NCBI GenBank assembly: GCA_027624715.1 | Contig: JAQBTV010000006.1 | Coordinates: 1-36,120, forward strand | From: Pseudomonadota bacterium | Lineage (GTDB): Bacteria; Pseudomonadota; Gammaproteobacteria; Burkholderiales; Eutrophovitaceae | DNA length: 36,120 nt | Direction of reading: 5' to 3' | Shown: in pieces, positions 13,856-17,956 of the stretch | Position numbering within the stretch: position 1 is the stretch's first letter | Layout of the letters: the number at the start of each line of letters is the position of its first letter | Notes under the pieces: generated by a model | What the model saw: the letters and a program-made list of their open reading frames with translations, nothing else | What the model was told of the DNA's origin: nothing | The model's database searches: none | Translations under genes and position numbers: made by a program

Positions 13856-13942
13856 TGGTGCCCGAAAGAGGACTCGAACCTCCACAGTGTTTCCACTACC
13901 AGGACCTGAACCTGACGCGTCTACCAATTCCGCCATCCGGGC
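13856..13942 (-). tRNA. tRNA-Leu (anticodon CAG)
   Basis: The minus strand reads GCCCGGATGGCGGAATTGG at the 5' end. It folds as a class II tRNA. The acceptor pairs GCCCGGA with TTCGGGC (one G-U). The D arm contains AATTGGTAGACGCG. The anticodon stem is TCAGG/CCTGG with loop TTCAGGT, giving anticodon CAG for CUG leucine codons. There is a long variable arm (TAGTGGAAACACTG), and the T arm is GGAGG-TTCGAGT-CCTCT. Discriminator A and the 3' CCA are encoded (TGGT on the + strand at 13856-13859). The gene has its own promoter just upstream and lies antisense to the direction of purA and rnr. Confidence 0.96.
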
Positions 13943-16244: not shown

Positions 16245-16974
16245 GGGAGATTCTTATATTTTTGGTTTTCATGCGGTATTCGCGCGGTTGAGGCATAGTC
16301 CTGCCACAATCAGCGAAGTCTTTCTTGATCGTAAGAGAAGAGATGCCCGAATTCGTAAATTAGAGGAGCGGCTGAATGAGGCAAATGTGAAAACTTCACG
16401 CTGTGAGGGAGACCGCCTAAATAATATGTTGCCTGGTGTGGCGCATCAGGGTGTAGTGGCTTCGGTTACTGTTGATCAAGCCGTCTTGAGTCTTGAGGAT
16501 GTCATTGCTCCGGTATCGGAGTCTCAGCTTTTCGTGGTGCTCGATGGGGTTACTGACCCTAGGAATTTGGGTGCCATCATGCGGTCAGCATGTGCTTTTG
16601 GTGTAGCTGCGATCATTGTGCCTAAAGATCGCTCAGTTGGAATCACAGATGTTGTCGAAAAAGTAGCCAGTGGTGCGGCGGGAATAATCCCGTTAATCAG
16701 TGTGACGAACTTAGCTAGAACTCTGCGTTCACTGAAAGAATCGGATTTTTGGATTGTGGGCACCGATGGCGAGGCTGAGGAGTCGATTAGGGATTTCAGC
16801 TTTCCTAATCGAACTGTTCTTGTCTTTGGAGCGGAGGGGTCTGGGGCTAGGAGGCTTACAAAGGAAACGTGTGATCATTTGGTATCTATTCCAATAACGG
16901 GCGTTATCGAGAGTCTTAATGTCGCTGTATCTGTGGGTATATGTTTGTATGCGGCCACCAAAATGGAGTCTTGA
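16234..16974 (+). CDS. rlmB: 23S rRNA 2'-O-methyltransferase RlmB (SpoU/SPOUT)
   Basis: Makes Gm2251 in the peptidyl-transferase P loop of 23S rRNA, by family knowledge. Seen: the N-terminal substrate-binding domain (IFGFHAVFARLRHSP), SpoU motif 1 LDGVTDPRNLGAIMRSAC, motif 2 VFGAEGSGARRLTKETCD, and motif 3 ITGVIESLNVAVSVGI with the knot. Length 246 is normal. The gene begins inside the end of rnr (11 bp overlap), so rnr-rlmB is one translationally coupled unit, as in E. coli. It is followed by 181 bp that hold the rpsB promoter and leader; no strong terminator is seen after it. Confidence 0.95.
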   Translation: MSVKGDSYIFGFHAVFARLRHSPATISEVFLDRKRRDARIRKLEERLNEANVKTSRCEGDRLNNMLPGVAHQGVVASVTVDQAVLSLEDVIAPVSESQLFVVLDGVTDPRNLGAIMRSACAFGVAAIIVPKDRSVGITDVVEKVASGAAGIIPLISVTNLARTLRSLKESDFWIVGTDGEAEESIRDFSFPNRTVLVFGAEGSGARRLTKETCDHLVSIPITGVIESLNVAVSVGICLYAATKMES

Positions 16975-17011: not shown

Positions 17012-17040
17012 GTGATTTTCTGGAGGTTTTCATATATAAT
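17012..17040 (+). promoter_or_regulatory. Candidate promoter of the rpsB cluster
   Basis: A perfect -10 TATAAT lies at 17035-17040. The best -35 at 17 bp spacing is GTGATT (17012-17017), a weak 3 of 6 match. The start would be near 17047, giving a leader of about 110 bases before rpsB. The position upstream of a major ribosomal-protein gene and the consensus -10 support it; the poor -35 keeps confidence moderate. Confidence 0.55.
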
Positions 17041-17085
17041 TTGGTTTATCATTCAAAGTCCGTGAGGCTCTGGATGAAATTCGCA

Positions 17086-17129
17086 CATTCGATTTGTTGG
17101 GGTGCTCTGTTGAAGAGTTCCGTCGAATG
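17086..17129 (+). promoter_or_regulatory. Structured rpsB leader hairpin
   Basis: CATTCGA (17086-17092) pairs perfectly with TCGAATG (17123-17129). Inside it, GGTGCTCT (17101-17108) pairs with AGAGTTCC (17114-17121) with one T-T mismatch, one G-U pair and a 5-base loop GTTGA. The result is an irregular two-part hairpin with a strongly asymmetric internal loop (8 bases against 1). It ends 16 bases before the AGGAG ribosome-binding site (17146-17150). In E. coli, ribosomal protein S2 represses rpsB-tsf through the rpsB leader. This element is a candidate counterpart, which is inference from position and fold only. Confidence 0.5.
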
Positions 17130-17155
17130 GAGGCATAACCCAAACAGGAGTAGAA

Positions 17156-17902
17156 ATGTCAGTCACAATGCGTGAAATGTTGGACGCGGGAGTTCATTTT
17201 GGTCATCAAACCAAATTTTGGAACCCCAAAATGGCCCCATTCATTTTCGGCCATAGAAATAAAATTCATATTGTCAATTTAGAAAAAACCTTAGCGATGT
17301 TCCGTGAAGCGGCTAATTACGCAAAGCAATTGTCTGCTAATAAGGGAAAAATCCTCTTTGTTGGGACGAAGCGTCAAGCGCGCGATATCATTAAAGAAGA
17401 AGCCCTTCGAGCGGGTGCTCCTTTTGTAAATTATCGCTGGTTGGGTGGCATGTTGACTAACTACAAAACGGTGAAGCAGTCTACAAAGCGTTTAAAAGAC
17501 ATGGAAGCCCTAATGGCGGACGGTGGTGATGAGCGTATGTCCAAGAAAGAAAGTCTATTTTACCAACGCGAAATCGAAAAGTTAGACAAAAGCCTGGGTG
17601 GTATCAAGGATATGCCGTCTTTGCCGGATGCCTTGTTTATCGTAGATGTTGGTTATCAAAAGATTGCAGTCGAGGAAGCCAATAAGCTCGGCATACCGAT
17701 TATTGGCGTTGTCGATACGAATCATTCGCCTTTGGGCATTGATTACATTATTCCCGGAAACGATGACGCGAATAAGGCGATTCAATTGTATGCAAGGGGT
17801 ATTGCCGACGCGATTTTGGCGGGTCGGGATCAATCTATTGCTGCGATTGCTGCTGAGCAAGTTGTGGAGACTGAAGGGTTTGTACCCAAACAGGAGGATT
17901 AA
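17156..17902 (+). CDS. rpsB: 30S ribosomal protein S2
   Basis: Small-subunit protein joining late in assembly and needed to recruit S1. The protein begins [24 protein letters not shown], the S2 signature, and contains [41 protein letters not shown], and the second signature [10 protein letters not shown]...[20 protein letters not shown]. Length 248 is typical. A good AGGAG sits 5 bp before the ATG. An upstream promoter and leader hairpin suggest its own control. An intrinsic terminator follows, separating it partly from tsf. Confidence 0.98.
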
Positions 17903-17922: not shown

Positions 17923-17956
17923 TAGGGGCATCAGCCCCTATATTTTTATTTTTTTT
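17923..17956 (+). terminator. Rho-independent terminator/attenuator between rpsB and tsf
   Basis: TAGGGGC (17923-17929) and GCCCCTA (17934-17940) form a 7 bp, mostly G-C stem with loop ATCA, followed by a T-rich tract (TATTTTTATTTTTTTT, 17941-17956). A smaller hairpin TATCC/GGATA (17903-17917) lies just before it. This is the best intrinsic terminator in the window. Since tsf lies 81 bp downstream with no obvious strong promoter, it probably acts as an attenuator that lowers tsf and distal expression relative to rpsB. Confidence 0.85.

Follow-up and report, generated by a model that had tools for sequence, protein, structure and literature searches.

In Escherichia coli, excess ribosomal protein S2, helped by S1, represses translation of rpsB-tsf through the leader of the mRNA, a feedback already mentioned in the first-pass annotation of the DNA studied here and described in a 2024 review (PMC10931766). 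According to the same review, the control may vanish upon deletion of a conserved bulge, the operator does not include the Shine-Dalgarno site and start codon, and the mechanism is unclear. The rpsB motif, as outlined in its original description (PMC2704228), is a structured RNA located before rpsB that comprises a stem P1, a hairpin P3 and a pseudoknot between the strand preceding P3 and a 3' extension after P1, with an optional helix P2. Transcripts linked to S2 genes are also mentioned for Bordetella pertussis, in which BprB derives from the rpsB 5' UTR and was connected with the rpsB motif by the authors who described it (PMC3110155), and for Burkholderia pseudomallei, in which an RNA candidate adjoining the S2 gene falls together with that gene (PMC5719362).

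The rpsB leader at 17047-17155 of contig JAQBTV010000006.1 (Pseudomonadota bacterium, Burkholderiales) was analyzed within a window of 36,120 nucleotides, the whole stretch of DNA considered. This leader is very probably a shortened representative of the rpsB motif and acts as a translational operator for S2.

Results

Locus and Transcription Signals

The leader lies in the stretch between the end of an open reading frame at 16974 and the start of rpsB, and tsf is the next open reading frame after rpsB. From inspection of the translations by eye, we take the gene order to be rlmB, rpsB, tsf, pyrH, frr, uppS, cdsA and dxr. Over residues 2-240, the predicted rpsB product shares 57.7% identity with the E. 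coli K-12 stretch annotated as rpsB. The genome assembly that contains the window comprises 1.77 Mb in 32 contigs, and its nearest named contigs are marine metagenome-assembled genomes labelled Betaproteobacteria or Burkholderiales. The order to which it belongs also includes a genome (G098) whose leader (L099) agrees in every letter with the one on a named Neisseriaceae contig (L029).

A TATAAT hexamer precedes the leader, and AGGAG, the ribosome-binding site of rpsB, lies near its 3' end (Table 1). A consensus scan gave no full sigma-70 promoter on the + strand; the promoter assignment rests on the conservation of this hexamer, from the position of which transcription is predicted to start at about 17047. 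The GGAGG at the end of P1 resembles a strong Shine-Dalgarno sequence but, being 22 nt from the start codon, is too far away to be a working one. That it might serve as a decoy was a mere idea and was set aside; GGCGG stands in its place in several leaders from the order.

Table 1. Features of the rpsB leader and its surroundings (window coordinates)
Feature	Position	Strand	Basis and remarks
-10 hexamer TATAAT, likely rpsB promoter	17035..17040	+	Sequence; invariant in 8 aligned genus leaders
P0, hairpin at predicted 5' end, outer seven pairs 17049-17055/17071-17077	17049..17077	+	Folding, strand matching
P1, 5' strand	17086..17093	+	Pairs with 17122-17129; covariation
Pseudoknot, 5' strand, core GGGU 17100-17103, outer 17096-17098 possible	17096..17103	+	Comparison
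P3 hairpin, CUCU/AGAG, GUUGA loop 17109-17113	17105..17117	+	Folding; two-sided changes
P1, 3' strand	17122..17129	+	Covariation
Conserved GGAGG, end of P1	17129..17133	+	22 nt before start codon; GGAGG in 59/72, GGCGG in 8/72 order leaders
Pseudoknot, 3' strand, core ACCC 17138-17141, outer 17143-17145 possible	17138..17145	+	Comparison; adjoins Shine-Dalgarno site
Shine-Dalgarno site AGGAG	17146..17150	+	Sequence
rpsB, ribosomal protein S2, 248 aa	17156..17902	+	ORF; start codon ATG at 17156

Between rpsB and tsf, a terminator-like hairpin followed by a T run is present at 17923-17940, and the level of tsf may be lowered relative to rpsB by this element. Similar hairpins were seen in the five genus relatives examined (L012-L016), and two loci of the same family (L017, L018) have none; E. 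coli carries AGGGGGCC...GGCCCCCTTTTT ahead of tsf. Elsewhere in the window, a tRNA-Leu (CAG) gene at 13856-13942 on the - strand lies between two + strand genes. A second S2-like gene was encountered in genome G003 (L010, 83-799), on a short contig; it is 55% identical to that of the window and may be a contaminant.

Hairpin and Conserved Stem

Inspection of the sequence together with folding confirms the hairpin placed at 17086-17129 by the first-pass annotation, including its base of seven Watson-Crick pairs (17086-17092/17123-17129), which U17093-G17122 could extend to eight, and its internal loop of 8 nt against 1 nt. The upper stem can likewise form seven pairs closed by GTTGA. Two of these pairs, G17101-C17121 and G17102-C17120, involve Gs that are shared with the predicted pseudoknot. 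The segment of 44 nt, which had been picked for its hairpin, gave a folding energy of -15.1 kcal/mol (z -3.2, with 1 of 200 dinucleotide shuffles as stable). By contrast, the 124 nt at 17047-17170 were no stabler than shuffled sequences (z -0.76, 43 of 200 as stable), and the case for a structured leader therefore rests on comparison with relatives.

MAFFT was used to align 13 leaders of the genus and family without reference to structure. This set leaves out L019 (identical to L012 over the stretch), the second S2-like hit L010 and L020/L051, which have unread bases at the expected start; no rpsB was found in genomes G004 and G016. P1 was paired in 77 of 78 cells of this alignment (98.7%), and four of its six pairs showed two-sided changes. 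The covariation score for the whole structure was 0.467 compared with 0.230 for shuffled alignments, none of 500 of which scored as high, and sliding the partner strand by 1-3 columns reduced paired cells to at most 53%. Pairs proposed by RNAalifold over the start region in the genus alignment (approximately 17131-17160) were discarded because no variation occurs at those positions.

A broader set of 72 rpsB-proximal leaders (the window, 13 genus and family loci and 58 order loci) was aligned to a covariance model derived from the family, seven places without rpsB and other named loci having been dropped beforehand. Across the 71 distinct rows, the paired fraction of cells was 93.7%, compared with 80.5% in shuffles. 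P1 was paired in 99.1% of cells and showed two-sided changes at each of its six pairs, and the pair just above P1 formed in 88.9%. The four P3 pairs present in the window also showed two-sided changes where counted, the outer two pairing in 83.9% and the inner two in 69.8% of cells, values that are partly due to poor alignment inside P3. As P1 and P3 guided the alignment, these order-level counts lean towards the model, from which the pseudoknot was absent. The compensatory base changes that the first-pass annotation proposed looking for in relatives are thus present in P1 in both the family and the order.

Pseudoknot

GGGU at 17100-17103, within the internal-loop region of the originally proposed fold, can pair with ACCC at 17138-17141. 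The earlier fold was accordingly right as to its hairpin half and overlooked the pseudoknot that completes it. In the window, the core consists of U17103-A17138, G17102-C17139, G17101-C17140 and G17100-C17141; G17099 and A17142 are mismatched, and U17098-A17143, U17097-A17144 and G17096-C17145 are possible outer pairs, directly after which AGGAG begins. The distance from ACCC to a Shine-Dalgarno-like site was 3-6 nt in 57 of 72 order leaders, as judged by a text pattern that left four unparsed.

All four core pairs are formed in each of the 13 family leaders, and one of them varies (GC in 10, GU in 2 and AU in 1). In the 71 distinct rows of the order set, the core pairs in 98.9% of cells. Its letters are near-invariant (GGGUG in 68 of 72 and AACCC in 64 of 72), and covariation is slight because the core hardly varies. 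The position next outward, 17099:17142, is more variable: among 70 leaders it is A-U in 35, U-A in 7, C-G in 3, G-U or U-G in 5 and unpaired in 20. Further out, the next three positions are paired in 60.0, 66.7 and 43.5%, respectively, of cells, so that the four outer positions together range from 43.5 to 71.4%. Taken over all eight positions, 79.9% of cells pair with a covariation score of 0.204, compared with 72.1% and 0.010 after a one-column slide. The predicted pseudoknot is therefore backed mainly by conservation, together with changes in a small number of leaders and at one pair beside the core. By energy, the best duplex in the window is a shifted register, UUGGG/CCCAA, which cannot form in full in L012, L019 and L015, where C or A occupies 17099.

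Hairpin at the Predicted 5' End

The P0 hairpin was assessed by folding and by matching cognate and non-cognate strands, as MAFFT failed to line it up in the genus alignment. In the window, P0 ends four bases before CGCAC, and a hairpin folds at this position in all eight genus leaders. The 71 leaders with enough DNA (L045 being left out) gave a mean z of -2.0 for the 45 nt before CGCAC, 49 of them lying below -1.5, whereas a control stretch further upstream gave a mean of 0.03, with 9 below -1.5. A helix of at least five pairs that ends 3-6 nt before CGCAC was found in 45 of 71 leaders; shuffles predict 19.0, and the control stretch yielded 19 of 71. The gap to CGCAC is exactly four in 33 of these 45 helices, and the helix starts 5-9 nt after a -10-like hexamer in 33 of 45.

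For the 44 of 71 leaders with a hexamer in range, P0 strands matched their own partners at 6.41 of 7 positions but foreign partners at 5.17. No permutation of 10,000 was as high, a count that is not a probability because related leaders are not independent; within the genus, the advantage was small (mean of 6.1 of 7 compared with 5.6). No helix of at least five pairs at that spacing from CGCAC was present in 26 of 71 leaders, and among loci of the same family L047, L049 and L050 lack P0 and L048 has it by a weak fold only (z 0.29). These data point to an order-level trait, in which a sequence-variable hairpin often occupies the predicted 5' end.

Distribution of the Leader

With the model built from the 13 family leaders, matches at E 0.01 or better were obtained in 69 of 200 order genomes. 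In 63 of these genomes the match adjoins rpsB, and the other six have a weak match only, away from rpsB. Examination by tblastn covered 70 of the 73 listed places, the other three being additional weak places in genomes represented by another match, and rpsB adjoins 63 of the 70 (in L109 it lies 46 nt beyond the match). Six places without rpsB (L103, L110, L113, L117, L118 and L121) scored 19.5 to 28.3 bits, and the seventh, L120, is cut off at a contig end. Since some true leaders score 20.3 bits, score alone cannot separate them from other matches.

A second model, built from the 72 order leaders, matched 169 of 300 order genomes. The stricter filters used here lose weak matches, and the 131 of 300 genomes without a match imply that the element has been lost, has diverged or was missed in many relatives. 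Under the same filters, with the same loss of weak matches, 216 of 370 class genomes matched; the best-scoring 29 class loci, not counting the window, are all located ahead of rpsB, one of them (L131) belonging to the order of the window itself. Among the named loci, matches were weak for L035 (E 0.003), L032 (0.013) and L036 (0.04), weaker for L033 (0.095), L021 (0.23) and L024 (0.32), and absent for L037 and L040.

Discussion

Control by S2 is the best reading of this leader because the same core is found in the same place as in E. coli. By analogy, surplus S2 very probably shuts off its own production through the leader. The first-pass annotation, which had proposed a candidate S2 autoregulatory element, is upheld in that the sequence is an rpsB leader of this kind, and regulation would follow from that membership.

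In the mechanism that we propose, S2 beyond what 30S subunits take up would bind the leader RNA, with S1 as in E. coli. Bound S2 (with S1) would hold the pseudoknot closed, and the closed pseudoknot would make it harder for 30S subunits to dock at AGGAG/AUG next to it. Translation of rpsB would fall as a result and, via lost coupling, so would tsf mRNA. When S2 is scarce, the GGGU strand would be freer, partly in the alternative GG-CC pairing, and translation would proceed. P0 probably protects the end of the transcript, although this is a guess. The review excludes the Shine-Dalgarno site and start codon from the E. coli operator and calls the mechanism unclear (PMC10931766), which argues against plain blocking.

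It is improbable that the leader senses S2 but halts transcription early, yielding a short leader RNA, with ribosome access not being the target. Such a reading would fit the short rpsB-linked transcript of B. pertussis, which its authors interpret as halted rpsB transcription (PMC3110155), but processing can equally give a short fragment. In addition, no intrinsic terminator-like site was found on the + strand inside the leader, and a pseudoknot set against the Shine-Dalgarno site suits translational control.

Still less probable is an unspecific 5'-UTR structure that merely shields the mRNA or leaves the start region accessible, without sensing S2. The sequence-variable P0 at the predicted 5' end is what would be expected of a protective stem; against this, P1 and the GGGUG, GGAGG and AACCC motifs are conserved across the order and among the class loci examined, and the matches examined precede rpsB, apart from weak ones and one at a contig end. 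A generic stabilizer is implausible, as it would hardly remain tied to one gene. That the plain two-part hairpin, including G17101-C17121 and G17102-C17120 and with no pseudoknot, is the working fold is very improbable: it is the minimum-energy fold, 6.6 kcal/mol better than P1 and P3 alone in calculations that leave pseudoknots unscored, and 42 of 65 order leaders could form the two additional pairs, but ACCC is kept with GGGU almost throughout the order, co-changes with it in a few leaders and is followed outward by a position that varies largely as pairs. Plain hairpin and pseudoknot fold may be alternative states.

A more speculative extension of the translational S2 operator, which we regard as unlikely, is that the order has a distinct minimal form in which the pseudoknot core suffices, the middle helix is a later or lost add-on, and P0, a dedicated 5'-terminal hairpin constant in position but not in sequence, is another functional part that links S2 occupancy to rpsB-tsf decay.

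Comparison with Known S2 Operators

The first-pass annotation had left undecided whether this lineage uses the gammaproteobacterial fold or another. Comparison with the gammaproteobacterial leader reveals the same core fold, pseudoknot included, in a shortened version. The order-derived model finds the E. coli K-12 rpsB leader (L122, 378-477) with 31.5 bits and E 5.6e-7, the match ending on the rpsB start codon. GGGUGC and GGAGGCAUAACCC of the E. coli leader and of Rfam family RF00127 (t44) are letter-identical in the window, whereas the letters of P1 and P3 differ.

The middle helix of the E. coli type, with its CACA/UGGG internal loop, is absent from the window and from most parsed order leaders, and the t44 alignment of the window shows a gap at this helix. 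Simple text patterns, which left 5 of 72 order rows unparsed, gave a spacing from C.CAC to GGGUG of 17-22 nt in 61 of 67 order leaders but at least 24 nt in 28 of 29 class loci, a comparison in which gathering the order leaders with a short-form model may favor short leaders. By the same kind of pattern, a CACA-like stretch and a GGG before the 3' strand of P1 occur together in 1 of 67 order leaders compared with 23 of 29 class loci, the two marks occurring singly in 12 and 13 of 67. The CACA/UGGG loop may therefore not be defining for an S2 operator, as the literature examined never calls it required for S2.

At their gathering scores, Rfam families gave no match at the leader. In a permissive scan, RF00127 aligned in register with 26.3 bits (E 0.0017; gathering score 44), and RF01815 (rpsB), the longer model of 132 positions, aligned in the right register at 17082-17157 with 21.4 bits (E 0.035; gathering score 40). 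Leaders of this type are frequent in the order, yet neither Rfam rpsB family reached its threshold in any of the 20 genus, family and order loci tested.

The order-level traits, namely the short form and P0, were not found in the literature searched, coverage of which was partial. The short form indicates which parts of an S2 operator may be dispensable and provides a smaller RNA with which to ask how S2 recognizes its own message. BprB of B. pertussis (PMC3110155) is likened to this leader by description. The closest parallel is the rpsB motif: the plan of P1, P3 and pseudoknot and its link to S2 are already described (PMC2704228), and the window has the same plan in the 5' UTR before rpsB, with covariation in P1, a P3 hairpin and the pseudoknot. 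It differs in that P2, optional there, is absent here, and in that the few betaproteobacterial examples in that paper compare with matches in 169 of 300 genomes of a single order.
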